33,946 bases of DNA from positions 1-33,946 of IMG/VR virus record IMGVR_UViG_3300032285_001431; one strand, given 5' to 3'. The notes under the pieces are model-generated. The model ran no database searches. It was not told where the DNA came from and was given only the letters and a program-made list of their open reading frames with translations. Shown here in pieces: positions 1 to 27,200 of the stretch (the stretch's first letter is position 1; every line of letters begins with the position of its first letter). A program made the position numbers and the translations under genes. Source of the stretch: a virus.

Positions 1-422
1 CTGAATTCACTACCACAGGTTCTGCACTTGAAGTTGCATATGTTGCTGAAACGAATGTCAAAGTAATGCATTTTAAAGTCAGGAACTGTTCCATCAGCTT
101 GAGTAGTAGGAACAGTCGTATCAAAGTGTTTACCAAAGTGTTCTTTACTATAGTTTCTGAAACTATGAGGACCTGCTTCTTCGTGCTTATAGCAGAAGTT
201 ACATATCTTGTTTGGTTTATCGGCTAACATATCCAGACGTAATTGTTTCATCTGTTCATTGTTGAATGCTTCTTTAAGACTGGTCTGTTTAGTGTTACCA
301 AACGGAACAGTATAATCATTGCTACAGCAAGGATAGATATCCCCTTTAGGTGTTACATTTAAATGTACCCAAGGGAACATACAGAAAGTTTTACTTTCAT
401 TTAATAGATATTCTTTGTTCAT
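1..422 (-). CDS. Third radical SAM protein, cut by the window edge
   Basis: The ATG at 422-420 overlaps the TGA of the preceding gene (ATGA), and the frame stays open for 140 codons to base 1. It begins 'MNKEYLLNESKTFCMFPWVH' and continues 'GDIYPCCSNDY', 'ICNFCYKHEEAGPHSFR' and 'FDIRFSNICNFKCRTCGSEF'. The last is the radical SAM C-x3-C-x2-C motif. It parallels the upstream 409-aa protein segment by segment (same 'MNKEY' start, 'MKQLRLDM', 'FDIRFSNICNFKCR'), so the two arose by tandem duplication. The C-terminal part, including the GGEP motif, is outside the window. Confidence 0.85.
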   Translation of the reverse strand, partial: MNKEYLLNESKTFCMFPWVHLNVTPKGDIYPCCSNDYTVPFGNTKQTSLKEAFNNEQMKQLRLDMLADKPNKICNFCYKHEEAGPHSFRNYSKEHFGKHFDTTVPTTQADGTVPDFKMHYFDIRFSNICNFKCRTCGSEF

Positions 423-1648
423 AATAATCCTGCTAGTTCTGGGAATGTTTCACTAAAATCTTCCCCGCGTAGATTGTCTACTCTGTGTATTTCACTTCTA
501 AATTCATTTTTATTTTGTTCCCAAGTATCTTGAGAAAACAACCATGCAAGTGATTGTTCAGGTTGTGATTTATGCCAGTCATTAAAATTATTTTTATTCA
601 ATAAATTAATATATTTTTCTAAACTTTCCTTACCTTTAATTTTATATTCAGTCGGTAATATATGAGGTGATAAAAATGTAGGGTGTGACATGTTATATAA
701 TGAGTAGGTATGATCTGTTGAAGTATACATTTGTTTGTCTATTAAGTATTGATAGAATTCGTGTATAGTCAACAAATTAAAAATACTCAATACAGTATTG
801 GTTTGAAGTTTTATATTGGGCATCTTTTTTGCATTTATAAAGTTTTCTTCAACAATTGCCCAATCTGTTCCATGCCGTATGTACTCAGCCCGTTTACCAT
901 AATGATCTATACTTGCGTAAATATCAATTTTCTTATCAAAGTGTTTCCACAAACCAAGCAAATCTTTATCTTTAAATTTTAGATTACTTAGGTTCGTGTT
1001 ATATCGTAAAGAAATATCAGTACGACCCTGCTTTATCATTTCTTCTAATAAAATATAATGTTCTTCAGTAATTAATGGTTCTCCGCCTGCAAAATATGCA
1101 GTTTCCATATATGGTATTTGGTCTACCACCTCTTGCAAAAATTTTGGATTATCATTCTTAGGAATAATTCTAGCATAAGGTACTTTACTCTTTAAATCTT
1201 CTTGTTCCCATTGAGTACTGAATTCGGAGCCACATGATCTGCATTTGAAATTGCATATATTACTAAACCGAATATCAAAATATTTCATTTTAAATTCAGT
1301 TACTGCACCGTCGGGGGTTGTATTTTTTAGTGCTTCTTCATAGTATTCAGCATATGTTCCGTTCATGTCTTTACGAAAACTCATAATATTAAAGTTTTCT
1401 TGTTTATAGCATTTACTACACTCATGATTAGGAACTTCATTAATCATATCCAACCGCAATTGTTTCATTTTTGTAGAATTTACTATCTCCATCAATGATT
1501 GCGTTTTAGAATTGCCTACACCTTCTCGGGTAGAGCATGATTCTGCTATGCAGCACGGTGCAGCTACTCCCAGCGGGGAAGTGTGTATATGTATCCACGG
1601 CACTATACAAAATGTTTTGCTTTGTGTTAAATGATATTCTTTGTTCAT
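419..1648 (-). CDS. Radical SAM protein with twitch/SPASM-like N-terminus (409 aa)
   Basis: The N-terminal 80 residues are Cys-rich: C14 in 'TFCIVPWIHIHTSP', C32-C33 in 'APCCIAESC' and C77/C80 in 'HECSKCYK'. The radical SAM motif is 'NICNFKCRSCGSEF' (C132, C136, C139) and the SAM-binding motif 'AYFAGGEPLITEE' (G188-G-E-P). The order (auxiliary cluster domain first, SAM core second) matches twitch-domain radical SAM proteins frequent in phages. It starts in an ATGA overlap with the 464-aa gene and ends in an ATGA overlap with the third radical SAM gene. It looks more AT-rich than the 464-aa gene by eye. Substrate unknown. Confidence 0.82.
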   Translation of the reverse strand: MNKEYHLTQSKTFCIVPWIHIHTSPLGVAAPCCIAESCSTREGVGNSKTQSLMEIVNSTKMKQLRLDMINEVPNHECSKCYKQENFNIMSFRKDMNGTYAEYYEEALKNTTPDGAVTEFKMKYFDIRFSNICNFKCRSCGSEFSTQWEQEDLKSKVPYARIIPKNDNPKFLQEVVDQIPYMETAYFAGGEPLITEEHYILLEEMIKQGRTDISLRYNTNLSNLKFKDKDLLGLWKHFDKKIDIYASIDHYGKRAEYIRHGTDWAIVEENFINAKKMPNIKLQTNTVLSIFNLLTIHEFYQYLIDKQMYTSTDHTYSLYNMSHPTFLSPHILPTEYKIKGKESLEKYINLLNKNNFNDWHKSQPEQSLAWLFSQDTWEQNKNEFRSEIHRVDNLRGEDFSETFPELAGLL

Positions 1649-3039
1649 TTTGGATTTAATTGGTTAACTTCTTGACATAATCTATAGAAGTTCATGTACT
1701 CTGGAAATACAGCTAGCATATCTGTGTCGCGGCGTTCATCTAATTCATTGAACCAGTTGTAGAAATCTCTACGACCTTCAATCAATTTACTTTCTGGATA
1801 GACTGTTTCTGCCATGTAATCTACTACACGCTTGAATTTCTCATATTCAACTGTGGTAAACTTATTACTTGCATTGTCATCTACATTAGCTAACATAAAT
1901 TCTAGTGCTTCGTGCATGTAGGGCATGAATTCTTCTTTAGGAAGAATGTTCATATCATACTGAATTGGGTCACGCAAGTATGGAGTATCAAAACGAACAC
2001 GATGACTTTTTATGTCATCATACCAACCATATTGATTACGCCATTCTAAAAACTTAGCCAAATACTCTTTGAATGTAGTTACACTAAAAATATTAAATGT
2101 AATCATAAATGTGATAGGGCTATTAGTACGTTGTAGATATGTGTGAAAATTCTTTTCCCACAATTCTAAGTCTAACCCTGTACGAATGTATTCAGCTTTG
2201 GGACCCCATGTATCTAAACTAGTGAATAATTTGAATGAGCGAATCTTTCCGTCATCACACAACTGTTTAACACTATCACTTAACTTTTCAATTAATGCTG
2301 TTTTGGTTCCCAAATTACTATTGATATTTAGTTCCAACCAAGGCATAGGATCATTGTCAATCTCTTTTAACAACTTCCATGTGCTTGTGTGCATCGTTGG
2401 TTCACCACCTGTTACACGCATGATGTTCAATGTCTTGCGTAATTCAGGCCACCACTTCCAAAATGCATCAACATAAGGATTTTCTTCTTCACGCTGATAT
2501 AGTTTCATCCAGTCAATATCACAGCGATGATTCTTAACTGTAGTCACAGGACCATTAGTTTTAATTTCATTGTAAAAACTTGTGCTATACTTTGGATGAC
2601 AGTAACCACACTTGAAGTTACATTCGTTACCAAAGTTAATCTCTAAGTATTCTGGATTGATGTTTTGATCCCAGGGTCCTTTAACAGTCTGTTCATAACG
2701 TTCTTCTGTAAAAATACTTGCATTACGTATATGACGGTCACTGATATATTCTGGACCCATTGCTTCAATGTTCCAGCAGTATTGACAACCAGTTGGCTTG
2801 CCGCCCTCTAACATTAGTTTACGTTCTTCTTTTTTCTGAATTGTATTGTGTAATGCAGAAGGATTATCTTTTAATTCAGCGAGAGGAATCTTGTGCGGTT
2901 GAGGATGATAACAACTATGTGTCTCCCCTGATTGTAAGTACATAGTTACATGATGAAATTTAGCAAGACAGAAGGTAGGTCCTACTTCATTGTCAATTTT
3001 TATCTTTATATCTTGTATTCGTTGGTGTTCACTACTCAT
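1645..3039 (-). CDS. Radical SAM protein with Cys-rich N-terminal extension (464 aa)
   Basis: The radical SAM cluster motif C-x3-C-x2-C is seen in 'NECNFKCGYCHP' (Cys 142, 146 and 149 counted from an ATG at 3045) and the SAM-binding motif in 'RVTGGEPTMHT' (G213-G-E-P). Before it, Cys 26, 45, 87 and 90 ('TGCQYCWN') form a Cys-rich N-terminal part like a SPASM/twitch domain placed in front, which would bind a second iron-sulfur cluster. I place the start at 3039 (third codon of the longer frame): AAGGATGGTA gives it a ribosome binding site at good spacing and its ATG overlaps the upstream stop (TAATG), while the ATG at 3045 has none. Substrate unknown; relatives act on peptides or sugars. Confidence 0.8.
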   Translation of the reverse strand: MSSEHQRIQDIKIKIDNEVGPTFCLAKFHHVTMYLQSGETHSCYHPQPHKIPLAELKDNPSALHNTIQKKEERKLMLEGGKPTGCQYCWNIEAMGPEYISDRHIRNASIFTEERYEQTVKGPWDQNINPEYLEINFGNECNFKCGYCHPKYSTSFYNEIKTNGPVTTVKNHRCDIDWMKLYQREEENPYVDAFWKWWPELRKTLNIMRVTGGEPTMHTSTWKLLKEIDNDPMPWLELNINSNLGTKTALIEKLSDSVKQLCDDGKIRSFKLFTSLDTWGPKAEYIRTGLDLELWEKNFHTYLQRTNSPITFMITFNIFSVTTFKEYLAKFLEWRNQYGWYDDIKSHRVRFDTPYLRDPIQYDMNILPKEEFMPYMHEALEFMLANVDDNASNKFTTVEYEKFKRVVDYMAETVYPESKLIEGRRDFYNWFNELDERRDTDMLAVFPEYMNFYRLCQEVNQLNPK

Positions 3040-3992
3040 TACCATCCTTCAATTCTACGGATAACATCCATCTCAGTTACGAGTGGACCTAAATTATGCT
3101 TGTCAGCGTTGTAGTGACGTTTAAAAAACTTACTTTGTTCTTTGCTCAATGTACACATAGGTAACCCAAGTTTGTCGTGTAATGCTGCACCTAATAGTGT
3201 AGCTTCACGTTCTGGATCTCTATATTCTTGTTCTTCCCACAATGTAATATAGTTATCAAACCATTGAACATTAGTATGTTCCCAATCAGTTAACATAGTC
3301 ATGTATGTACCTAATCGTGCGCCATAGATAGCCCAAATGCCATTCTCAACATCAGCGCCTACGTTATGCCAAATAGTCAAGTTGTTTAAGTTACGACTAG
3401 CGACTGTAACTTTGAATGTGTCAATGTCAGGCTTAGCACCCTTATCAAGAACCATCTTTACACCTTCACGAAAGCCTGCACGCCATGCTTGAAACGGAGT
3501 ATAGTTAGGATAAGTAGTAGAATAGCAGTCATACATTGCCCAATATAAGTTATCTTTGCTATCTAAACAGAAGTCAGCGATACGTGACACATCACCATCA
3601 GTTTGATTTTCATGTGTTTTCATATTAGCAACATAGGTCTTAGTCCAGCTACTCATACCACCGTTGCCATAACGCAATCCATTGATACTGTTAACAGCTT
3701 TCCAACGAAATTGTGCTAGTTGATACTTAGGGTCTTTATCAGTAAAGTCTAGTTGCATATTGAAGAAACTTTCATCTGGCATGTTATCACCGTCAATCAA
3801 AATGAATCGTTCAGTATCACTGGCTTCACCTGCTGCCTTATGTGCAGCATCACTACCTTTAACTCCGTCAACACGCTTTGCCCACGGAATCATGTTCTTA
3901 ATCTTTAGCCAGAATTCTTCTTTCTGTGGCTCATCATAGCTAAGATAGATACAATCTAAATCCGCTACGTCAATAATATCATTGGAGTTCAT
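3039..3992 (-). CDS. GT-A-like glycosyltransferase (317 aa)
   Basis: It begins 'DVADLDCIYLSYDEPQKE' (about residues 8-25), continues 'MIPWAKRVDGVKGSDAAHKA' (about 34-53), and has 'ERFILIDGDNMPDESFF' (about 61-77) with D67-G-D69 as the metal-binding D-x-D. Later 'FQAWRAGFREGVKMVLDKG' and a C-terminal part with 'GARLGTYMTMLTDWEH' follow. The layout fits a family 2-like or related GT-A transferase; it differs clearly from the two GT8-like proteins upstream. It overlaps the 113-aa gene by 14 bases. The start has only a weak ribosome binding site (TGGAAA), in line with translational coupling. Confidence 0.72.
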   Translation of the reverse strand: MNSNDIIDVADLDCIYLSYDEPQKEEFWLKIKNMIPWAKRVDGVKGSDAAHKAAGEASDTERFILIDGDNMPDESFFNMQLDFTDKDPKYQLAQFRWKAVNSINGLRYGNGGMSSWTKTYVANMKTHENQTDGDVSRIADFCLDSKDNLYWAMYDCYSTTYPNYTPFQAWRAGFREGVKMVLDKGAKPDIDTFKVTVASRNLNNLTIWHNVGADVENGIWAIYGARLGTYMTMLTDWEHTNVQWFDNYITLWEEQEYRDPEREATLLGAALHDKLGLPMCTLSKEQSKFFKRHYNADKHNLGPLVTEMDVIRRIEGW

Positions 3993-7189: not shown

Positions 7190-8437
7190 TTATTTAGATA
7201 CAGTAACAATTGCTAAAACTGTTCCAATACTAGTTGTTGTTTTATTTTCTAATGCTCGTCCAATAACATTAAATGCAGTTGCTTCATTTGATTGGGCGGC
7301 ACGTGCCATTCCATTGCCTGCACTAACTAGACGATCACCTTTCTTTACTATACCAGTGACTTTTACTTGAACACGTCCTGTCATAGCGACTGGCGGGTGA
7401 GTTGTATTGTCTCCGGCGCCTGAATTCATCAAGTAAGCAGCAGTATCAGAGATAACACCAAATATATCTTCACTTAATTCATATCTTACGCTAGTGATTT
7501 CTTTTTCACCGCCCAATTCAACAACAGTCCCTGCATCATAGTATGCATCAGCCTCAAAGCGTTCTGCCAAGTCAGCGTATGTTGCTTGCAATCTACTAGC
7601 ACCAACTAGTGACCAAGTACCTGTAATTTGACCAGCAGTTCCTGCCGCGCCTGTTGTGATATTTGCAGTAGTTACACTACTAGGAGCAATAGCACCGGCA
7701 AATTGTGATACTGAATTTGCTCCAGTTAAGTAATCAAAAACGTTTGCATTATTATAAGTACCTGCAAAACTGATAGGTGTACCGTTTGCGTACATATATT
7801 TGTCAGTTCTAATACCGTATGTATTACCTGCATTGTTAATAACGATATTACCTGAATTGACATAAAGACCTGTACCAGCAACAGAGTTTGCTGTTCCTGT
7901 ACCATTTAATGTCCAAGTTCCTGTAACTGTACCAGCAGTTGTTGCAGAGCCGGTTGTTATTACAGTAGTGTTTAATGTTCCAATATTACCTGTAGTAATA
8001 TTTGCAGTTGCAATAGTAGCATTAGAAGTTGCTGTAATTGTTGCGGCTGTAATTGTATTGGCAGTAATTGCATTGCTAACAGCTAAATTACCTGATGAGA
8101 TATTTCCAGTAACTGTAACAGCACCAAATGTTGTTGCTCCACCGCTAGAAGTTGAAGTCAATGCTAACCAAGCATTTGCGTTAGATGTACCGTCTGCTGG
8201 ACAAACATACAATGTATTTGCGTTTGTATTGTACCATAATTGACCTTGAAGCGGGTTAGCAGGGGGACTTGTATTAGCGTAATTTTCTAGCTGATGAACA
8301 AAGTTTGTGTCTACGTATTGACCATAACCAGCATAATTTCTGCCCGGTAATGCTAGTGAAGTACTACTTGTGTTAATAGTACCATCGGCAATAGTTGTCA
8401 ATATTTGACCATTGCTTTTTACGATTGTATATGCCAT
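7190..8437 (-). CDS. 415-aa tail fibre-like protein
   Basis: The N-terminal 90 residues contain 'FVHQLENYAN' and 'NPLQGQLWYNTNANTLYV' (about residues 61-78), a pattern I associate with N-terminal domains of phage fibre and neck proteins. Residues about 95-280 are low-complexity Thr/Ala/Asn/Gly repeats typical of a fibrous shaft, with an internal duplication: 'ITTGSATTAGTVTGTWTLNG' and later 'ITTGAAGTAGQITGTWSLVG'. The C-terminal domain starts near residue 283 with 'YADLAERFEADAYYDAGTVV' and continues 'DIFGVISDTAAYLMNSG', a common end domain of aquatic phage fibres that resembles Peptidase_G2-like self-cleaving domains. I cannot confirm a catalytic site. It probably works in host recognition or as a fibre-linked virion part. 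Confidence 0.78.
   Translation of the reverse strand: MAYTIVKSNGQILTTIADGTINTSSTSLALPGRNYAGYGQYVDTNFVHQLENYANTSPPANPLQGQLWYNTNANTLYVCPADGTSNANAWLALTSTSSGGATTFGAVTVTGNISSGNLAVSNAITANTITAATITATSNATIATANITTGNIGTLNTTVITTGSATTAGTVTGTWTLNGTGTANSVAGTGLYVNSGNIVINNAGNTYGIRTDKYMYANGTPISFAGTYNNANVFDYLTGANSVSQFAGAIAPSSVTTANITTGAAGTAGQITGTWSLVGASRLQATYADLAERFEADAYYDAGTVVELGGEKEITSVRYELSEDIFGVISDTAAYLMNSGAGDNTTHPPVAMTGRVQVKVTGIVKKGDRLVSAGNGMARAAQSNEATAFNVIGRALENKTTTSIGTVLAIVTVSK
7191..7198 (-). promoter_or_regulatory. Late-promoter-like TCTAAATA before the 318-aa gene
   Basis: The coding strand reads TATCTAAATAAGGATTATAA up to the ATG at 7180. The 8-mer TCTAAATA overlaps the last codons of the preceding gene and lies 10 nt from the start. 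AAGGA just after it is a good ribosome binding site. The same 8-mer precedes the 101-aa gene. Confidence 0.4.
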
Positions 8438-9255: not shown

Positions 9256-12200
9256 TTAGTTTCTATCCGTTCTTAAGAAATTTGCTCCGTCTGTAACACT
9301 AATCTGTAAAGGATCACCGTCAGTAGTATTATATACATAAGAATTCCATTCAGAAGAATATAATACATCAGACATGCGATTATTAGGAATTAATCCAAAT
9401 ATTTCTGAATATAACGGGATATAATTTTGTGCTCCTGTACCATTAGCACCTCTAGTTAGCTGACTGACAGTATTTGCTACTAAATCACATTCACCAAACC
9501 CAATTTGTTCTCCGTTGATATATAACAATCTACCCTCAACTGAGGTGACTGTCAAAGAATTTCCAGCAGAAACTTGGGCAGAAATCTGTAACACCGGGGC
9601 AGAATCTACAATAACTATTTGATAATTTGCAGGATCTACTGTAGTAGAAGTTGTGTTGTTGTATACTGTTATGTGACAAATTACATTTTTGTTAGAAGTC
9701 AAACCAATATTGTATAATCCAGACACTGCTGCAGGACATGTTACCACTTGAACAACATTATCAGTAATACGAGTTACATCATTAACATAAATTGTACTAT
9801 CTGTATAATATAACGGCTGTGTTAACCAAGTTCTAGTTTGTGTATTTGCTCGGTAAACTGATGGTTGATTTGAAGTAGTTACATTTAGTAAGTAAACTTC
9901 TTCATTGGGAGTAGCAGTTGGCATCATACTGGTTACTATAACTTCATCACCTGTCTGTACTACAGTTAGTATACTTAAATTATTGTATGCATTAAGTTTT
10001 AGTGATGATGAAGGAACTCTATAACCATTTACAGTTACCCACAATCTATCAACATTAACTTGCTCAAACTGAGAAACATTTATAGTTATACCACTAGTAG
10101 TTGTAGCATTTGTTAATAAAACTTCAGCTTCATTTGGATAACGATTTGCACTTATTGTAAACTCTTGCAATCCAAATGCAAGACCTGTTCCAGTTTGTCC
10201 AGAACTATTACAAGTAAATGTTCCACCTATTACCGGAGTTCCAACATAGCCAATTGTATTCCAGTTAGTAGTACCAAGTATAGAAATTTCATATGTATTG
10301 CCAGAAATAAAACTTCCTGCCTCAATTTCGGGTCTTACTTGTAGAATGTAATATGTAGTTTTTGCTAATATTCCACCAAGTAAGTTTTGCCCAGCTAGAG
10401 CACCAATTTCTGTAAATATAACCGGGGTGCCTTCAACTAGTGTAGTGGTACTTGGTACTGTAATTCTATTTCCATTAGCAGTAGTAGATGTTACAGTGGT
10501 ATCTGCAATAGTGAATAATTGATCTATCCAAGCATACCCGCCTGAGATGTATGTTGATGAATATGTTACTGGATAATTTACAGCAGTTAATGCAGGATTA
10601 TATGGTTGTAAATATAAATCAAACACCTTATTAGTTATTACGTGAACATAATAAACATTATTGTTTAATTGAGTAGCACCAACAATACCATCAAGTCTAA
10701 CTAATTCATTTTGTGTAAAATAATTGTTTATTCCAGTTGTTACACGAATAGCAGGAGTTCCTCCCATATAACCAACTACTACACTAGATGAAGTAGTTAA
10801 TGTGATTACATTATTAAATTGATCTACTATAGTAAACTGTGTTGAACTTACAATAGTACCAACAAAATATACTTGACCAGTTGTATCTATTCCACCATCA
10901 TTAGCAAATAATGCATCACCTGTACCAGAACCAATTCCCGTAGCAGTAAATATAACACCCACTGTATTAGAACTTGCGCCAATTAAAGTAAAATCAGTAG
11001 TACCAACTGTTGTGATTTGATATTGTGCGCCCACAACAAAAGAACCGGCATTAACTATACCTGCTTTAAATATTATAGGTTGACCGGCTACTAACAAAGA
11101 AGTAGAATTACAAGTTATATAGTTTGTTATAGCAGTAGTAGCAGTAACAGTTACTGTTGCAGCCGGTGGAGTTATAGTGTTATTAATAGCTGTAATATTA
11201 GATACTGTAATTCCATTAATGACGCCAGTCATAGTTCCACTTGCGCTGGTTACTACAATTGGTGATCCTCCTAGTTGAGTAGAAATTTGAAAGTCTGTTG
11301 AATTTAATATTGCTGTTACAAAATATGTTTGTCCAGCAATTATGCCACCTATCGCGGGGCTATTGAATACAACAGGATAACCAATTGTCAATCCACTAGT
11401 ACTTGAGGTAGTTAAGTAATTAAGTTCCTCATCAAATGGTCCTGCAGAATATGAATAAGCAGATCCGTTTCCTAATCCTGTACCAACATTAGCACAAGTA
11501 AAAATACTTCCAACTGCATAAGTTATACCGGTTGTTCCTGCAATAGTATTCCATTGAGTATTAGTAGTTGTTCCCAAAGTTACAATAGAATACACATTAC
11601 CTAGAACAAAAGATCCAGCAGTCTGCAAACCTGTTTGATTGATAGCATCAAACCCTTCACCTGCAATGATCGCTGATCCTGTTCCAGTACCTACGCCCGT
11701 TGCAGTGAATGTTAGTCCAATTGTATTTGAAGTTGCACCAATAGCGGTGAAGTCTGTATTTGCACCTGGAGTAGGGTATGCATTGTCATTGAGTGACTGT
11801 ATAGTGTAAAGTTGTCCAACTACAAAACTGCCAGCAAGTATGGCATAATCAAACGATACAACAAAATTAGTAGTACTAGTAACTGTTATTGTAGACAATG
11901 TTTTACTTCCAGTAATATTATACTGTGTATTAAAATATTGACGTTCAGGTAAATTGTATGATGTTACGGCGACTGTTGACCCGTTGCTAGGAGGAGGCGT
12001 GAATAATATTGAGTTAGTATTAGGATTAATTGAATACTTACCTTGATTTAAACGTAACCCATCAACTTCTACTACTGCGTTAGTAGCATTTGTGGTACCT
12101 ATATAGTTTGTCAATGAGAATGAAGCAGATGAACCATCACCAACAAATTGTTGAGTTTGAGGTAATGTATAACCATATTGAATTGGTAAAGTTTCACCCA

Positions 12201-15200
12201 TTAATGTATAGGTTATGTAATCTATTGTATTGTCATACACACTTGCTAATATTATTGACGCAGAGATTCCGTTGTCTGCAAGACCAATTGCATAATCATT
12301 GGTTACAAATATTGCACCACCTGTTGCATTCGTTAATGTCAATGTTGTTCCGCCCGCAGTTTGTGATATTGTAAATTCATTCCCGTCATATATTGATTTA
12401 ACATAATACACTTGATGAGGTATAATTACGCCACCAAACATAGTATCACTGAATACGATTGGTTGATTAACAATTAATCCACCGGTTGAAATAGTTGTAA
12501 CTGCATTGTTACTAGCTTTCGTTCTTACGACAGGAGCAGTAGTACCAAGAACCATAGTTGTTCCGTTATGATATACTGAAGGCGGAGTCCAAACTACGCC
12601 TGTACCAACTCTAATTACGGCTTCCATTTGTCCAGTAGCAGTTGTCAATACAACAGTTTCACCAGCAGTACCGGTACTTGAATTATAAGTAGCAGAGATA
12701 GTTATTCTATTTGAATATCCACCAATAGATTTAACATAATACACTTGATCTTCAACGATACCACCAAATACTGCACCGCTGAATGTTATTGGACTATTTA
12801 GTATAAACTGGTTAACACTTTCGCATGTAATTGTATTGTTTGTGCCATTAGTTGCAACAGCATAAACATATACAGGATCAGTTCCCGGTCTAATTACCCC
12901 AGAACCCTGATACACCGTTTGACTATAATTTGCATTTACATATATTTCTTGGAATCCTGTAACATCATTATTTCTAATAGGATCAGTTTTTGTATTTGCC
13001 TTAACTAATTGATCTCCGTTACCAACTTCATATACATCTATTTTTAATGTATCTGTACCGGGAACAATATAATTCAAAGGAGTAACTAACGTGATTGTGT
13101 TATTAATCCAATTTACAGTATAATTTGTTCCATTGTATATTCTAGTAGCTAATCCATTAGTATAACTAATTATATAAACACTTAACTGTGCAGGAGTCAT
13201 TACTAGATTATCAAAACTATATACGGTTTGATTACCACTAGTTGGTTGTATCTCAGTTGATACTACATTATATCCAACATGTTGATATATTGTTTCATCC
13301 CAGTCTGTTCCGGGACGAGTAGCAACAGTCATCATAATAGTGTCAGAAACTACACCAGGCACTAATTCTTCCGGACCATATCCAGCAGTAAATGCGTCAC
13401 CTTCTACAGTATAAGCTGCAGGATCTGATATAAAACTAGAATTTGAAGTCCATGTAACAGCATTAGAACTAATTAGTACAGTATTTTTATCACCCACTAT
13501 TACATACTTACCGGCAACATTATTCCAAACAGTACTTTCTAATGTCTCTGTAGTGCCAGATGTACGTTGAGTCCAAGGTGATCCGTATATTGGTGCAGTT
13601 AATATAACTCCATTTTCACCCACTGCAATGTATATATTATTATAACTATCCCAAATTACATTGGTTAATTTAGTAACTACTCCGGATGATTGGGCATTCC
13701 AAACAATGGTATTGAAACTTGTGTATATTGATCCATTGTCACCCACTGCTACAATACTTTGTGTACTTGAAGCAACACTATTAAATCCTGAATGGGTGGC
13801 GCTAAAAGAAACTTGTCGCCAAGTAAGTGAGTCTGTGCTAGTATATATTATAGCATAGTTAGTTGCTATTCCTGATACCAATTGTTGACCTAAACCTACC
13901 GCCACAAATCCAGTATAACCTGCTGTAGATACGTGTGCTACACCATTAAAAATATTAGTTAGACCATTAGTAAACGCATAACGCATAGTCCACGTATATA
14001 AATCAGTAGATGTAACAATGTCATTTCCTACTGCAACATATATACCGTTGTTATAAGTTACACTATTTAATGCAGTTGCAGGTACACTTATTGAAGATAC
14101 ATCAAAATTGGTGTCATTAAACGGAGTACTGTCATAAGGAGTGAAAGTTCCATTAGTAATCCATTCATATCCATTTGTGCTTATTAGTATAGGTGTAGCA
14201 TTATTATTAGTTGTAATAACATAATTCCCACCGGCATAAATTAAATCAGTAATGTTAAGAGTTTGATTAGCCAAATTATTAATAGCCCAATCAAGCCCAT
14301 TGCTACTTATATTGAACAATGAATTGTTATTGGTATCTGAACCGGCTAGATAAAATAATCCATTCCAAACAATAGCTTTCAAGTTAATCCCTGCAGGATA
14401 GAATGGCTTATCTGTTAATATTGTATCTAATGTATACTGCTCTGCCGGAGCAAAAGCATTACCTTCATATGTACTATTAGGATAAGTTATACCAGATACC
14501 AATTGAGTTAAATCTACCCCGGGCATATTAACTGTTGGTTGATAATATCCAATAATTCTATCTAAGGCATTTAATTTCTTACTACCAGAACTTAATAATT
14601 CCCACTTGCCAAAAATAAACTCAGGATCATTGTTACTTACAATACATTGATATAAACGATTATTGTATTTTACAATACTAGCATTAAAGAAGAACGGCTC
14701 AGGTAAGAATGCATAATCCCCTGATTTAGCCATTGTCATTCCAGTTCCAACTGTTGTAGCTAATTGGAATGTACTTCCTCCTAGTGTCTCAGAAATTGTA
14801 ACTGTAGTAGTTGTTGGTTTAGTTAATATATAATATGTTTGACCTAATACTATATTACCAAATACAGAACCAGTAAACACGACGGTATCATTAATATTAA
14901 AACTTGCAGAACTTGTTACTGTAACTTGATCAGTTAATGAACTAGTAGCAGTAGCAGCGGTTGTAGTTGCACCTTGATATGCAAAATTTTCTCCTGATAC
15001 AGGAACTGTACAATTAGGATTACTATAAACACCAACTTGATTTTCAGATATAACCTTCAAATAATATTGTGATACGTCACCTGCAGGAGTTCCATTTGCA
15101 ATACCTGATGTTATGCCACCGGTACTATTAACTGTTAATACAGTTAATTGTAAATTATTTGCAGGCTTTGTTCCACCTAATAGATCGCCAGTAATAGTTA

Positions 15201-18200
15201 CAATGTTATTAATTGCATAACCAGATCCAGCAGTTGTAATTATGGTGCTATACCCACCTAACTTATAATTTACGTCAAATACTGCATTAGTTAATACTGC
15301 CTGTGTTAACTGTACTGGATTTTGTTCTACTGTATGAACCCCAGTACCAGCAGTAGTTGTTCCAATTGCAGAACCAGTTGTAGTATATGCTAAATTAAAT
15401 GTGTTCCCGCTTAAATTAATTACATAGTATGTTGTAAAATCATTTAACGGTGCAGGTAAAGTTCCAGTAGTATGTAAAACCACACTTGCACCGTTGACAA
15501 ATGCACTTCCAGTTGTAACTGTAAATACAGCCGGGCTAGCATTAGAGATAGTAACAGTTTGAGCAGAATTCTTTAAAGAATACCCGCCGCTAATTGTTAA
15601 ATAATTATCCCCGGTGCCTGTCATTGTTCCGTTATCAGTGGTTACTTGATATACACTACTTAAATTTATATCTGTTGAAATTGTAAATCTACCGGTGCCA
15701 GCTGGAGGGCTTGAGTCAATTGAATAAACATAATAGACTACTCCAATTGCTACTCCTCCCAATGAGGTGCCTGAGAAATATAACGGCATTCCCACATATA
15801 GTACATTAGTAGTATTTGCATTTGATGCGATTGGTAAAGTTAACCAATACCCTGTGCTACTTGTATTAGTAACAGTTATTGTGGTTGTTCCAAAACCATT
15901 TACGGTATAAGGACCTGCACCAACTGTCAATCCACCAATACTAGATGCAATATTAAATTCTAAATTATTGTATATATTGGTTAATCCTGCACCACCGGCA
16001 GTCAAACAAATTCTATTAACGGTTGCCAAGGTTGCACTAATTTCTCTTGTTAACAAGTTAGAAACTGTTCCGGTTTTATTAACGTATTGATCGGATGTTT
16101 GATATAATGTAAATTCTTGTCCAGTGATTTGTCCTGGGCTTATTGGTAAGCCAACGTTCAATGTCATTGATTTATTAGAAACAGTAGTTAATACCACAGT
16201 ATCTGCTTGACTAGTACAAGTGCAAGACCCTGAATCAGTAGTTAAAGTAACAATATTACCATTAATACCATCAGCAATTGTGAATGAAGTATTTGATATT
16301 ATTGCTCTTACATAATATGTAGTGCCAGCAACTATATTACCAAATGTTGTTCCAGTAAATATTATTGGTTCATTTACAGTTAAATTTGTTGTACTTGAAC
16401 AGGTAATATAATTAGTTCCTGAAGTTGTTGCAGTTACAGTAAAGTTAGTAGGAGAATTATTTGTAGATGCTGTAAATGTTTGATTATCAACTACTGTAAT
16501 TACATAATAAATTTCATTTTCAACTACACCACCAAATACATCTCCGGTAAAGAATATAGGAAGACCCAAATAGAATCCACTTGTACCATTTTGACCAGTA
16601 ACAGTTAACGGTGTTGTAATATAGTTTGTTGTTGCGGTAGTTGCTGTAACTGTTCGTATACCATCATAATTAATAGTCAATACTGCAAGATTGGTTAATT
16701 GACCTACATAAAGTGTAAGACCAGCTGCACTTATATTTGTAGTGTTTTGTGCTACTACTGCCCCAGGATTACCGTTACCATCAACTGAAGCCGAAATAGT
16801 AAATCCAGTATCTTCTAATAAGTATGCTGTACCAGTTCCAATTGCAGTTGCTTTGATAATTATCACATTACCTACAGAGTAAGTTACTCCTGTAGTACCT
16901 GCTACGGTATTCCAATTTGTTGTACCTAAACTGCCAATTACATAATTGTGTCCAAGTTTTAAGTTAGCAGAAAGAGTAACAGTTGCGTTTGGTAATTGTA
17001 CTAAAGACTTTACGTAATAAATAGTTTCACTTTGTGGTGATGCTTCAGGTGGTGTACTGCTTACTAAAGGAGTTCCTGTAGTTGATCCTATAAATTTAAC
17101 TGGCATGCCTATATAGAAACCAGTTGTTGAACCTATACTACCCGCAACTTCTGCTCCACCGGCATTAGGATTAATTCTAATAGCATTGCGATACGCTGCT
17201 ACAGAGTACGCTGACCCGTATGTTTGTACAGTATTTCTTGTTCTTGATGACCAAGTTAGCGACTGTTGATTTTGACTATCTAAAATTTCAAAAACTGCAC
17301 CATGGGCACTAGCTAATATGCTATTGATTGGTGGAGATGTACTTTCTAATGTTATAGAAGATGATGAAATTTGATTACTATTGTTTAATGAACCGGCATA
17401 AAATGATCCATAAAAATTACCAGGCAACCAGTCTATAACTTGTGAATTATAAGAAGTTCTATCAAATCGTAACGATATACTATTTTCTCTAACAGGGATA
17501 GCACTAGTTACACAACTAGCAACAGCGCCAACACTAAAATATTGTGTTCCGGACCCTTGTGATTCAAACACAACACGGTTGGCATTATTGATTGCATCCA
17601 AGTAAGTAGAATATAATGCAAAAACTGGTGAAGGAGATATTTCTAAAAGATTTACATAATATCTTTGACCAACAATCAATCCACCAATAGCGGTTGAATC
17701 AGCTCCAATAGAATAAACAACTAAATCACCAGTTTGTAATAACTCGGCTGAGCCAGTTAAATCAATAGTATCACTTACTATGTCTACATTAGTACTGCTA
17801 ATATTTAAAGTAAATGCAGGGTCAATGTTAATTGTTGGTAATACAGCATAACCTTCACCCGGATTAATTAAGTTTATCCCTACAACATAACCAAGACTCA
17901 TTATAGGTTCAAATTGTGCAGGAACTCTTGGTGCAGGATAGATAGTAGTATCTATATAAGCAGTAACTCTAGGAGGATTAGCATATCCTCTTCCTTCATT
18001 TAATACTACGACAGGTGGCAAATCAATGAAAATATCTTCGCCAGGAATATGTATAGTAATTGTTGTACCGTTTGCTCCGCGAGATAATCCTGTTAATTCA
18101 TTTGTTGCTAAGTTTCTATTAGCATATCCAATTTGCTCTTCACCAATCATTATAGTACCAGTTACTGGCAATCCATTAACATTGTCAATAAAACATGAAT

Positions 18201-21200
18201 TTGAATTTAATGATAGATAAGATGCTAAAACTGATATTTGATAGCCTTCTTGACCCGTAATACTCAATCCGTAATTATTGTACCATTGGCTATATGGGGC
18301 AGTTTGCCATATTGCATCAGTGTATAAATATTGGGTATCTAAACTTGGATTAGAATATACTAATTCAGGAGTAACAAATTGTTCTATACTTGAATTGTAT
18401 TGTGCCGGTAAATCAAAATCAGTTATGTCACCTTCAAATATTTCAGTACGTGTATATTTAAATATGAACTCTTTAATTACTACATGATAAGGTTTAACTT
18501 CATTCAAATAACCTTCTAAGAACAATTGGTTATCAGAACGGAATACTTCTAATGGAAGCAATTCACGAATAGTATGTGAAACATCAATGAATGATGTTTT
18601 GTTCAACCAATCTAAGTAATTCTGACTTTCAATGGTTTCGCTTTGAATGTATTCAAATAGTAAGATTAAACTCTTATTTCTAAAAACTAATAATTCATTT
18701 GTGTAAATTTCTTCATTCAATGCACGAATGATATAACGAGTTTCTGTACTTGGATATTCATCATACGGAGTTGTATCAAAGAAGTTATCACCAAAGCCTA
18801 ATTTAGCTTCAGCATAATCCCAAAGTTTGCTACTGAATTCAATAGTTCCGTTAGCTAGACCAATACGTGTCCAAACACCAGCACCAGAATATATGTATGT
18901 TTCACTATTACCAGCACTATTTGCAGCAACAGTCACAATAGTTCCAACAGCTACACTTAATGTAGACAAATCAGCATATAAAGGAACTTGCAATGCAGAT
19001 TTGGTGTTATTATTATATCCGGGCGCCCACCAATTTATTGTATTCCAATAATTGCGAGTATCAAAGAATTCACCAGACTGATACAAGAATTGCGAATTTC
19101 TTATTTCAATGATGGGGAATTGTGCCAACACAGTATTAGCGTATATTAAGTAATTCTTTAATGCTCCAAACCTATTATAGAAGAAGCCCTGTCTTGGTCT
19201 AGCTAATATACCAGTTTGTACTGCTTTTGGTAGTAATGGGTCAGGTACAACGCCACCTGCGTTATCAACACCACTCATACTATCTAGCATTCTGTTGTAT
19301 AGACCAATTGGTTCAGTTATGCCCACTGCTGCATGATTTTGATATCCGGCACCTGAGCCAGGCACTCCGGATAAGAAGTCATCTGGATAATTAGCACGAA
19401 TTAAACTATATTGATTATGTGCTACATCATCACTAACTGTAATTGAATAACCAATATGTAAAACTGTATCTTTAGCATTTATATAATCAAAGCAATTATA
19501 CAAAGCAAATACATTTGGTAACAGAGGAGTAAAGTAACCAATGCCAGTGGCTGACGGGAATGCAATATATGATTGCAAAGTAGAATCAGCTAATGTTTTT
19601 CCTAACTCTGAAAAAACAATATTTGAATTTCTAACCCAGAAATAATATACTGGGGTAATTAATCCTTCTTGATTTATTATTCCGCGAATTGAATAGGTGT
19701 TTATATCATACGGTGTACCTGGACCTGTGTATTGGGAAGGTGTTACATTACTACCAATCCATGAATATACTGCTACATCACTACCGGGGAATACTCTACC
19801 CCACCAACGACTATTATAACTAACATCATTTTGATGATAATTCATAAAACGAACATTGGTTGTATCAAACCAAAGTTGTCCTATTTTATCTGCTCCCCAA
19901 ACTAAACCGCCTTGGGCATTATTTGTTGTAGTATATCTTGCAGGATCAGTATTAGCAACAATGTCAATATTTTCAACCACTGCACCTAATAATTTACCTT
20001 GCAACGGATCAATATAATCTAAGTTTTCTATTGTCTGATTAGTCATTGCACTAAACAATTGTATGTTAAATACACCATTAATATCTACAACAGGAGCAGA
20101 ACTTCTAAATACTGCCCAATCAGGTGAACTACTTGTGCTTATATAAGTTACTACTTGACCATTAGTATCATTAGCATTAGTAGTTGGCATAAAGTTTGGT
20201 GTACCAACTGTAACACGGTTACTATTAAAGTCTAACGCTCCCCCATAATATGGTTGTGAACCATAATCTAAATCTCGTGCGTTTGTACTTTGTGCATAAA
20301 CAAACTTTCCAGGAGCATTTAAGTTTTCATTATACGTAGACAGATAATCAAACATGTACACTGCGCCCGCATTGCGGAATGTGTCAACCCACTGTGTTGC
20401 GTTATTGTCAAATACAGTATCGTTATCTAATTCATCATCTGTAAAATCAAACGTTGTAGCACTATATCTTGTACCAACCGGTGCACTAGCAATAAATGAT
20501 CCTGAATTAGATTTATCAAATTTAACTACAGTGCCAAACTGAGTGCGACCCTGTACGTGAGGACAAGTTATTTTTTGTGTCTGAGTATATAATTTCATAC
20601 CCATTTCACCTAGTGTAGCGGTATCTAAAATAGTTAATGTTAATTTATTTCCAGCTATACCTAATTCATTATTAATCAATGATATTGCTAGTTTACCTTG
20701 ATCGGTGGCAGATGCATATATATTAGTTAATGCTAACAAATTAATACTAGCAGCTACGGTAGCAGCGTTGCCGACTGGCAATATAGCTTTATACCCATTA
20801 AGTAAAATTGTTCTAGGAGTAGTGATGTTACAAGCATCATTACCAAAAATGATACCATATTTTTCTCCACCATTTGTATATCTATGAACAGCACCTTCAT
20901 AATTTTGATCTGATAATTCAAATGGTGCACCAATCAATATTTCATTAGCAAATCTATTAGTGTCAGTGCTTAAGCCAAATTGAACACCGACTCTTGGTGT
21001 TTCTTCATTAGTTAATGTTTGTGCTAACACAAAATTTGACCCGCCTACATTAAGTATATCACCTGCATTCAATGTTGGGGTATCGTTGCTGTATATACTT
21101 AGGGTAGAACCTATAACTGAATAATAGTTGTCTGTTAATACTGTTCCATTAATTGTTACGGTTAAAGGAGTTGTTTGTACCGTCACTGTCATAGTACCAC

Positions 21201-24200
21201 CAGTATCATTTCCAAGCTGTATGACACTGCCATATCGTGTAGAAGATATCGTAAATGTAGTTGACGTTGGCTTAGATTGTACGTAATACACAGTATTTTG
21301 TGATATTGCCCCAGCAGATATTATAGAGCCAGAGAATACTACAGGGTCTCCTACACTAAAGACAGTGCTATCACTTATTGTAATTCTATCATTAGATGCG
21401 TTCGTATCGGTTGCAGTTTGTGTTACTGTAACCGGTGACCATGCTAGCGGGAATGTCAATGGAATATATGCTTGACTGGTAGATTGTGATTCAAAGTTTT
21501 GTACCGTTCTGGAAAATACATATGTGTATCCATAATTAGCAGTATTAAGGTCATAGTCTTTTTGTGGAGTACCAATTACTACAGTATCACCGTAATAATC
21601 AGTAGAAACAGAATAACCAAATTGATCTCCAGGAACTGTTAATCCTAACGCATCACCGTCAATAATATACGAAAATGCATAAGTTGTATCTTCTGCGACA
21701 CCCGTACCTGCACCTGCACCTGTAGCAATGAATGCTGTTCCTACATTATTGCTAGTAGCACCAATTAAAGTAAAGTCGGTTGTACCTACACTAACAATAG
21801 TATAAGTTTTACCTGACACAAAACTACCAGCAGTGATATTGTAATTTGCTTTACGATAAGCATATACGCTATTGTTATCTATATCAGAAACATAAAGCCA
21901 ATTTTGATCACCTGACAATGCAGTAGAGGTTCCCCAAGTTGTAACTCCACCGGGCGCAGCAATAGTTTGATATAATGCTAATGTGTTTAATTCTCTAGTG
22001 TTTATTAATTGATAGATATAAACAGTCGGTGTAGTTGTTGGTTGTGAAATAACAAACAAATTATCAACATAAGATATATTTGCACCAAACGTTGTGGCTT
22101 GTGTTATTGTTTGTTGCGGTGAATATGCGTCTATAGTCGCATTATATGCATAGCGATACACTTCTCCGGCAGCACTATCACTTATTAAATATCCTAAATT
22201 ATTAGTGTATGCTACTGCACTACCAAATGTGTCACTCGCTGGTTTAACTATTTCTTTATTATATTGATAGTTTATGCTCTTACGGAACACAGCCCAACTA
22301 CCGTCATTATTAGTATCAACCCAAACTTTTACTTTATTAAATTCATTATCTAATAACGGCAAGTTAACAATTTCAGGTGCTGTGGCAACACGTTGAGACT
22401 GCATTCTAAATCCAATACCCAACCCGTTAATATTAGTTATTTGCGGGTTTAATGCTAGATTAATAATCACATTGAATGGATCTACTATTGCACTAACAAT
22501 ATAATAATTGTCAATATTTACGTTAAAATTAACAATTGCAAAAACTTGATATTTGGTTAAATTATGAGCCTGGCTAAAAGTAATGGTAACTGTGTTATTT
22601 AAATTATTTTTAGCATTGATAATTGAACCTAAACTAGCAGGCGTATAAACTTGCCAATCTGCCAAATAATTTGCTAACCAAACATAATCACGAACATAAA
22701 ACTCATTGATTGGAACTACGGTTCCAGCAGCGTTTTGTGCGTTAGATAATCCAGAATAGAAATAACTAGCCATTTTAACATCATCAAAGTTTACGTATCC
22801 TGCAGTAGGATACAATGATGATGGTTGTGAACTAGATATAGTAGGCAATATATCAGGAGATGATATTGGTGTGCCATAGTTAAACACACTGTACAATGGT
22901 ACTTCTTGTTGAACCCCGTTTGTATATGTTCCGTTAGTTAATCCAACAATAGAAGGATTGCCTGTTAAGTCGGGCTGGCTTAATCTAAATTCAATAAAGT
23001 TATTGTTAAGTGTTCCACCAAACTCACCTGACTTAATTGCCCAGTTTTCATACAATTCATAATCAATTCCACCTTGAGGCAAGTTAGCACCCTTAAATGC
23101 GCTAGCTGCATTTTTTGTACCCTTATCTTTAATTAAATTTTTATAAACATTAACTTGTGTAATGTCTGTCAAATCTACTAACGCAAGATAGTCTCTTGGA
23201 CGATAACCAATTAAAGAGAATGACAATAAATCAGCATCATTTTCTAAATTAGCTTTATCTACATCATAGTATAATGTACTTTCATATGAACGTGTTTGAC
23301 TATTAGGTAATAGTCCTTTTTGTATTTCAGAGTAAGGAGTTTCTTTCCATTCACGTTCATCAAATACTTCTTTTGCTTGAACTATAGTGATTGCTGACCA
23401 ATACTTGTTTTTATATTTTACTATTGAACCTTTGGTATACTTAATTTCTTTAGTCCATTCAACAACGTTATCTTGGTTAAGAATAAATCCATAAGCATCT
23501 AATATACCGGTCCAGTCAGCAGTTTTTGCACCGTTGACTGTGATTCTGTTTTGACGCAATCCGGTAATCAAATTATATATTATATCATTGAACAATGTTA
23601 CATTATCAAAAATTATACTATTCTCAATATTACTAATATTAAATTGTCCATAACTAATTGCATCACCTCTATTCAGCGGTACAGCAACGAAACTAGTACC
23701 ATCACGAACTACAGATAATTGGTCAGATGGAATAGGATACAGGTCTTGATTTAAAACAAAATTAGTTTGTCTTAATGTCAACGGTTGAACTATTCTGCTA
23801 TCTTTATTAATAGTCAATGAACCAGCAGAGGGATTGATTGTTGTTATACTACCCAATTCCCATCCAGTTTGTGCCCAATATAGATATTCAGCAACCATTT
23901 GTTGCCAATTAATTGGAATGCCACTTTCTACTATTTCATGCAACACACCCTGACTGGTCAAGTAAGCGCCATAACTCATTATAAATTGAGCAACTTGTTG
24001 TGCATTATAAAATTCAGTACCGTATGGTATTGTTTGAACTTTATCATAGTATTCATTACTTATTTTTACTGTTAAGTTTTCAACAGTAATAGTTTCAGTA
24101 AACGTGCCGGCTTTTGGGGTAAGAACTTTAAAGTAAGCATTGGTTTGTGAGTTACCGTATACTTTGTAACCATTTTCAGATATTTGAACTACTATACCAC

Positions 24201-27200
24201 TATAAACAATTCTATCAAATGGTTGATTTTCGTATAATATTAACCCATAACTTTCGTCTGGGATTAATAGTGAACTATTGTTACTATTTGCTGAACTCTT
24301 TTCAACATAGAATTTTAATAGATTCTTGTCACTAAATCCCGCCATGCGATATACTAAACGAACATCTAAATTATCTAACAGCGTGGTTAAGTTAAGTGTA
24401 GCATTAACACCAACTTGTTTTTCATAATCAACAATCCAATTAAGATAACTGGTTGCAGGAGTACCTTGTCCGTAGATTGGTATGTTAGTTAGAACTAAAT
24501 GGCTTCTATCATTTACAAGATATTGATTAAATTCAGTATTAAATTTGTAATTGTCTACATCTACACCTAGATTAAAGAAATCGGCGGGTTTAGTCAATGC
24601 TAATATACGCATCAAGTCAAATGGCCATGTGCTACTTCTACGATAGCTAAATTCAGCTGGGCCTACATCTCCCACTTGCCAATCTTTATTGAATGTTTGT
24701 TCGGTATAGTTACCTACAATAGCATCAAAAGGAGACAATAACTCACCGTTACTATTTACTGGTATTATATCCAGTAAACCAGGACGTGCATAATTTGGTT
24801 TTATATAAGGATTGCCGTTGTTCCAAACAGTACCTGTTTCTAAATCTCCCCACAATACTAAGTTATCACTTGTATACGGTGCTGCACCGTATCTAGTTGT
24901 CCACCATGTTGGTTCGTTTGCTAAACCTAACATTTCCCAAGGAGTTTCATTTGGAGTGCTTGTATCATAGAAATACAAATATGCACCTCTAAAATAACCT
25001 TGTTCAATTGGTTGATTGTTTAGTTTGTTACCACTGTCTCTATAGTTATAAGTAAATTGTTTTGTTTTATTATAGAATTGAGTTTTGTAATCAATTCTAT
25101 TTTGCCCTACCCAATTTAAAAATGATTCACTATATATTTGCAAAAATTCATCATATGTGTAATCTGTTTGTCTAAAGAAGCCGGGAATTATAACACCTTG
25201 GTATGAACCAGCCGGTGCTGTTTCACTTAATTTTAAGTTGTTATATACACGAGTTTCATACTCTAATAACACCTGATCTCTAAAATCAACTAAAGTGCCT
25301 GTAATTGTATTATATGTACCGTACAATTTATTGAATGAACCATCGTGTCCTACAATGAAATATGTTTCCGGGTTGTAGGCAGTATCTAATACTACAGCAG
25401 GAATAGTTGCAGGATACAAGCCTAATTTGGTAGGAGTGTTAGGAGCATAACTTCCATATGTTTGATTGTATTCATTAATTGTAATTTGGTCATTGGCTTG
25501 TAAATCTTTGGTTACAGTTAACGAAGGACTATCTGTACTTACAGTATAATCAACTCCTTTTACTAGTTGAGTTTGAACTCCATTACGAGTCAAGTAAACC
25601 AATACGCTATTGTAATTAGCAGTAGAAAAATTATATATATGACTTAAAGGGTAAACACTTACATCTAATGTGTTTGCAAAACTATAAGTGTTGCTGATGT
25701 ACGGCGCCTTAGATGGAATCATGTCACTCCAAAAGAATGGCTGATCATCAGTATGTGATGCATTCATTTTATCTAATGCATCATCTAACATTTGTGAGGG
25801 CGTTAATCTTATTGAATAATCTGCGTTATTAACTGTATCAACTAATAAAGTTTTAAAGGTGATGTACTGTCTGCTATTGAATAACAACGAATTGAATATA
25901 TTATGTGCTTGATTGCGTAAAATTGTGCCAGGCATTACTAACGAAGCACTATTTTGAATAATTCTATTACCCCATGGCACTAAATTACCCAAATCACGAT
26001 AATTATTAGGGCCAAATACTTCACCTGTTGTATTTGGATTATTGTAAAATATACTTTGATACTGCCCGCGTATTTCACCAATGTTAGCTGTTGTTAAATC
26101 CCCATTGAATGGGTTATTATTTAAATTGATTGGAGTTTGATAATATGCAGTTGCACTTACTTGATCGCTTAGTATTAAAATTTGAACTACAGTTTGTGGT
26201 TCTGCAATTGTTGTTATATTAATTGATGTGGTAGTATCTGTGGTTGTTGCTGTCCAATATTTATTAGGCAAATATACATTATTAATGTAAACTTGTATTA
26301 GTGGCCAGTTAGTAGAGATAGAAAGTACAGGTGCTATATCACATACAAATGTATTAGTTTGATTTACTATAACATCATAATTAAATTCAAATATTTGATA
26401 TTGAACGCTAGGTGATACTGCTGTTTGCCATCCTAATTGTCTAACTACTGTAGGAGTAGATGGAGTTGGTAATGTATAATTATATACATAACCTGTATTT
26501 ACTTTTTCAGTTTTAGACGTTGTTCCATTTACATATGTAAAGGTATCGCTATTTAAGGTAACATCAAAACTTATATCACCTACATTATCTACTGAACTAT
26601 ATCGTAGTGGAAAACCTAATACAGTATCATTACCACCTGTACCTATACCATACGAGAATAAAGTACTGCCAACAAAAGAAGTACCAACATAAACAAACTT
26701 ATCACCAAAACTTATACCATTTGAATCATATACATCAAATTTAGGAGATTGATTAAGTTGCGTTTTTTGTTGTCCCGGATTCCAATTCTCACCAGTAAAA
26801 TAAAAATCTTGTCCCTGATAGTAATATCCCCTAAACACCACGGTTTGTTCATTTGGTAAAACTAATCCATCTTCTGCTTCAGTTAAAGTAATTACAGGAG
26901 TACTACCCGGTGTAATAGTTGAGAAGCGAGAAACATAAATTTTATTTTTTACATTTATATCAGTATCGGCAGTAAAAACTACTCTAGCACCGTCAAATAA
27001 AGCATAATTATCTAATGGAGTATCTGCGGTAACCACTGATGCTACTGATGTTGCATTGATTATTGATTGATCATACCAAGAAACAGTAATTACAGTATTG
27101 TTACCAACAATTTCAACATTGGTAATAAATGTTATTGAAGGTAGTAATTCAGTTGAATCTGTTATATATTGTCCAACTTTAAACAAACCAAACACATCAG

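Follow-up and report, generated by a model that had tools for sequence, protein, structure and literature searches.

The locus analysed here, IMG/VR record IMGVR_UViG_3300032285_001431, is a fragment of a T4-like phage contig. The window, meaning the whole stretch of 33,946 bases, encodes a giant protein in which a short module, here called B, recurs six times inside other modules. The question is whether B is a portable unit of protein sequence, and by what route it would have reached its positions. It is likely that B is a small, independently folding and evolutionarily portable domain, copied in frame into tolerant loops of proteins exposed on virions or cells. The evidence for portability consists of edges that are sharp, a large number of unrelated hosts, sites that are filled in some relatives and empty in others, swaps of subtype, self-nesting in loops and one copy at the DNA level that is confined to B. 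It upholds an earlier sequence-only reading, which proposed that B is portable as an in-frame unit, by movement or copying into loops at the surface. An active element with mobility of its own goes further than this and is not shown.

Six copies of B and the modules that they split

The giant protein is a virion structural protein of 6714 amino acids, encoded by a single open reading frame (ORF) on the minus strand (9256..29400). It matches PHROG 10938 'virion structural protein' with an E-value of 2.4e-192. A profile built from the six copies of B in the window finds all of them at 58.6-62.8 bits (E 3e-20 to 1.5e-21), and the next-best stretch of the giant protein scores 3.8 bits only. All six were present in the sequence-only reading, with coordinates that agree to a few bases. 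B is 46 residues long and its coding segment is about 138-150 bp.

B1 (type I; 21694..21831, minus strand, as are all copies; 60.8 bits) lies in a hairpin loop or turn of an FG-GAP propeller blade. Its location inside the blade, already proposed from the sequence, agrees with an FG-GAP_2 match just downstream and with the alignment of empty sites given below. The other copies are associated with a second module, called A, a widespread repeat with an E1 FCCH-like barrel at residues 648-6059 of the giant protein. B2 (type II; 16822..16965; 61.3 bits) lies in a degenerate A module, between the strands YYV and FTIS. B3 (type I with a 9-residue insert; 11671..11835; 58.6 bits) and B4 (type II; 11458..11619; 60.9 bits) form a tandem within an A module, in its first hairpin loop. 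B5 (type I; 10912..11049; 62.8 bits) is placed before the YYV strand and B6 (type III; 10177..10320; 62.1 bits) between YYV and FTIS.

To examine the splitting of A modules, the sequences on either side of each B were joined and compared with a profile derived from A modules that are not interrupted. The score rose from 17.5 to 45.4 bits for B5, from 21.7 to 39.4 bits for B6, from 48.0 to 54.6 bits for B3 and B4 together, and from 3.5 to 19.6 bits for B2, whose A module is degenerate. These increases indicate that three loops of A receive B. The B3-B4 tandem occupies the first hairpin, B5 the loop that precedes YYV, and both B2 and B6 the one that connects YYV to FTIS. The sequence-only reading had recognized the latter two loops correctly, but its count of two was too low; the B3-B4 tandem, which it had placed beside an incomplete A module, is instead inside the first hairpin loop.

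The A module split by B5 (10696..11178, minus strand) was modelled with AlphaFold2 as residues 6075-6235. The mean predicted local distance difference test score (pLDDT) was 88.4, and 93-98 over B. VIA-align matched the A model to E1 FCCH, phage tail and EF-Tu-like beta barrels with Z-scores of 7-8.0. About 74 residues were aligned within model residues 5-138, fewer than this span holds, which is consistent with B being skipped in the alignment. The barrel of A is complete without B, which groups A with the E1 FCCH-like barrels; its match to Pfam E1_FCCH is weak and under the cut-off. The fold in question belongs to the host module A, which B splits, and not to B.

These data bear on the possibility that B belongs to the normal A fold, or is itself a variant A repeat, with the nesting as an effect of alignment. 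The second half of A is weakly similar to B (GxxxxGxxYxVxxxxxTxFT; 24 columns in hhalign, with a probability of 8%). However, the A barrels are complete without B, and uninterrupted A modules exist, such as the one at residues 2661-2739 of the giant protein (103.7 bits with the A profile). Some hosts of B, a major capsid protein for example, have no A module at all, and empty sites contradict the idea as well. It is thus extremely improbable. The outcome that the sequence-only reading had named as damaging to its proposal, B strands being integral to A, is not what the models indicate, as A appears to align to known barrels with B left out.

B alone is confidently predicted by AlphaFold2 to be a compact, independently folding domain (pLDDT 95.4; predicted template modelling score 0.79; model of 55 residues), as the sequence-only reading expected. 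The model has strands at 2-4, 13-18, 37-39 and 49-52 and a short helix at 24-27, and the strands at its termini suggest that both ends are close to each other. The same fold is seen in independent models of uncultured phage proteins, at a root-mean-square deviation of 0.3-0.6 A. A sequence search of PDB with the B profile found nothing (best E 0.49). In fold searches of PDB with the B model, the best Foldseek E-value was 4.8 and VIA returned none, an absence that is not proof of a new fold. No model in Pfam or NCBIfam covers B in the 54 B hosts scanned, and no immunoglobulin (Ig) family of these libraries was found among them. B was missed in annotation because these libraries hold no model for it.

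Filled and empty sites in relatives and in unrelated proteins

Sites of B are filled in some relatives of the giant protein and empty in others. For the B1 site, the region containing the FG-GAP propeller and one uninterrupted A module (21001..22500, minus strand) was aligned with L129-L139. The site is filled in the window, L129-L133 and L135, and cleanly empty in L134 (56% identical) and L136-L139 (44%). Among the relatives compared, only L133 carries another B, in the A module that follows. B5 is absent in L144, L146 and L147, B6 in L144-L147, and the B3-B4 pair in L141, L142, L148 and L149. At least 12 different insertion sites are used across the giant-protein family. The sequence-only reading would have been contradicted by B standing at the same A positions in all relatives; several of them lack B at the A and FG-GAP sites concerned.

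The subtype of B also changes at a given site. The B2 site, which has type II in the window, carries a type I copy in L140. At the B5 site, type I (TTDFTLIGASSNTVG) is seen in the window, type III (TTNWNAIG...GTPVVGG) in L141 and L149, and type II (NTIAGTSGVTY-like) in L140, L143 and L151. The types at the B6 site are distributed otherwise than at the B5 site. The B5 copies of the window and L141 are 48% identical, against 66% for their flanks, and B5 of the window shares up to 80% identity with copies that lie in unrelated proteins. The simplest reading of these sequences is that exchange between B copies would explain the changes of subtype at one site. The B3-B4 site of L143 (residues ~1700-1850) contains a complex stack of truncated and nested B copies.

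To find B in other proteins, viral contigs were searched by one degenerate DNA pattern (TDFTxIGA), which gave at least 120 stretches, and hosts were clustered with B masked. Among the matches listed, B is found in at least 118 ORFs and at least 49 host clusters, and all viral hosts that can be named are virion proteins. They include a major head protein (L030), head-tail adaptors (L025 and L104), a head closure protein (L065), an internal virion protein, minor tail and distal tail proteins, central fibre J, a baseplate wedge and many tail fibres. With these clusters and the empty sites, B is an optional component of unrelated virion proteins. The edges of B are sharp and in frame: column information is up to 4 bits within B and near 0-0.3 bits in the flanks, except for V/I-T just before B (0.98 and 0.63 bits). 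Several genes carry B in single phage contigs, with 17 matches in L363 (53 kb) and 15 in L364-L370, a 345-kb jumbo phage.

Among cultured and deposited phages, B was found in three records only: cyanophage S-TIM54 and two spring podoviruses. A DNA search for a B-empty relative of the S-TIM54 fibre found only itself, and no match was obtained in the plasmids searched. In bacterial species genomes, 8 of the 119 matches in a pattern scan were genuine B, the rest being mostly chance. Bacterial hosts with a Pfam match are secreted- or surface-type proteins with fn3/GEVED, FG-GAP_2, Lcl_C, autotransporter (PATR) or Peptidase_S74. Part of the bacterial contigs with B may be phage DNA.

Close pairs of filled and empty homologues were observed for two virion proteins. 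The capsid protein L030, with B, and L280, without B, are 87.2% identical in protein and 83.6% in DNA. At the B site they differ by a net ~46 residues, and part of the linker is replaced. The adaptor L283, with B, is 79% identical to L285, without B; B is present in two of the 80 best adaptor loci.

If B were an old domain inherited mainly vertically at fixed sites, its presence and absence would reflect loss with little lateral movement. The retention of B1 at one site in many relatives agrees with this, and so does a DNA-stabilisation-type host that keeps B at one site in several phages. Against it stand the 49 or more unrelated host clusters and the extra copies unique to one relative (L133 and L052). 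Subtypes differ at one site, yet B5 matches copies from unrelated proteins at up to 80% identity, and one match of 87% at the DNA level, described below, spans two genes. Inheritance of this kind is quite improbable as the main explanation.

Self-nesting, DNA identity and the age of the copies

B is also inserted into B. Joining the flanks around full B copies gave a second B match of 28-75 bits in about nine lineages (L099/L018, L066 twice, L088/L056, L016/L113, L076, L123, L110/L038 and L041). In a control with B regions excluded, the best of 20,285 random non-B junctions scored 5.7 bits. The outer B is split after about residues 17, 28, 36-38 and 40, and these points fall in predicted loops of the B model.

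The L052 contig contains a pair of copies that are similar at the DNA level. One is in the giant gene and the other in a second gene, on opposite strands. The two positions are L372 608-746 (plus strand) and L371 1350-1494 (minus strand). They are 87% identical (126 of 145 bases), with 49 consecutive identical bases, and the identity stops at both edges of B. The site in the giant gene of L052 (LTS|VTT-B-Y|AGDNFG) is empty in every relative compared. The host sequence at this site is S|AGD, and B begins with AGS. The pair therefore appears to be a recent copy, or a conversion between copies. The run of 49 bases lies towards the 3' end, a gradient of identity that suggests gene conversion. A second protein encoded by the L052 phage also contains the A module.

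Most copies are old and evolve under purifying selection. A recount agreed with the sequence-only reading that B1 and B5 differ in five of the ten codons for GTTDFTLIGA. No palindromic or hairpin DNA was found in eight copies of B (z -0.86 to 1.63), and B as a DNA hairpin element was rejected for these copies. With no hairpins in B, and with purifying selection acting on copies that are mostly ancient, the data do not support a DNA transposon.

This weighs on the alternative that B is a selfish in-frame mobile DNA element, like Rickettsia palindromic elements, in which the DNA moves by its own means and is no more than tolerated in the protein. Several observations would be expected of such an element: edges that are sharp at many sites, insertion of B into itself, 15-17 copies in single phage genomes and the pair whose DNA identity is confined to B. 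However, no strand forms a hairpin in the eight copies examined, and silent sites are saturated. The G+C content at third codon positions (GC3) of B tracks that of its host (r 0.82), the hosts that can be named are exposed structural proteins only among the matches listed, and no linked mobility gene was recognised. A selfish element is accordingly improbable. A related idea is unlikely, namely that B is a mobile element at the protein level which a dedicated or phage-recombinase-driven route still copies, inside one phage genome or from one to another, into the loops of folded virion proteins and of B itself.

Several points also weigh against a portable domain displayed on virions. Nearly all copies are saturated at silent sites, with the same codon at 39% of shared residues, and copies from different host clusters reach at most 77% DNA identity. 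Because of this saturation, the act of transfer is clearly visible in one pair only, that of L052, which could be a conversion of older copies. The purifying selection may reflect only the need of B to fold. The sample comes from one pattern, TDFTxIGA, and cannot give the true frequency of B or exclude intracellular hosts. Display or binding by B is a matter of inference.

Proposed route of transfer, possible role and comparison with known systems

As a portable domain, B would move when its coding segment is copied, with the frame kept, to a loop in which the host fold accepts an insert. Ordinary recombination could account for the movement, as illegitimate insertion and as exchange between existing B copies, with phage recombination as the route of insertion at tolerant loops. 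Copies would be retained by selection for display on the particle, and not by a mobility enzyme. B may decorate the particle surface. Like the role suggested for the Ig-like domains of phages, its function is probably to make weak contacts, either with the surfaces of cells or with particles.

The giant gene sits just downstream of gp25-like and gp6-like baseplate genes. Another protein of the window (7190-8437) has a C-terminal match of the Peptidase_G2 or intramolecular-chaperone-like kind; it is likely a fibre. At 3-3045, next to the tail module, tandem radical-SAM-like proteins with CxxxCxxC adjoin glycosyltransferase-like genes. Judged by sequence, these are possible candidates for virion or host modification genes.

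B shows that environmental phages widely build virion proteins by inserting an entire mini-domain into loops, its own loops included. B is a natural, very small, loop-compatible cassette that is accepted by major capsid and head-tail proteins. With filled and empty homologues that share 79-87% identity, tests of gain, tolerance and function can be made directly.

Rickettsia palindromic elements and other in-gene inserts resembling miniature inverted-repeat transposable elements (MITEs) are short in-frame inserts in protein genes. B is similar to them in this respect but has no palindrome or hairpin, is conserved at the protein level with saturated silent sites, and is seen only in exposed structural proteins among the matches listed. 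The B motif was not found in texts of papers. A survey of phage protein mosaicism describes fragments shuffled between proteins of different function (Smug et al. 2023, PMC10684548). The minimum fragment of this sequence-based survey was 50 amino acids, and B, with 46, is below this limit; no B-like unit was found in the available portions of PMC10684548.

The sequence-only reading knew of no module with such behaviour. This is correct only in part, since the promiscuous phage Ig-like domains behave closely alike. According to PMC10385173 and PMC8718954, which cite Fraser et al. 2006, these domains are optional, occur on many virion proteins, are also directly inserted in capsid proteins, and have been proposed to bind weakly to carbohydrates on bacteria. 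B shares the optional presence on many virion proteins, including the capsid. In contrast to these domains, B has 46 residues with no detectable relation to Ig in sequence and a model without a match in the PDB fold searches, usually occupies internal loops rather than ends, and nests in itself. The best reading is that B is a very small, loop-inserting addition to the promiscuous domains of virion surfaces, which are a functional class and not a homology family.
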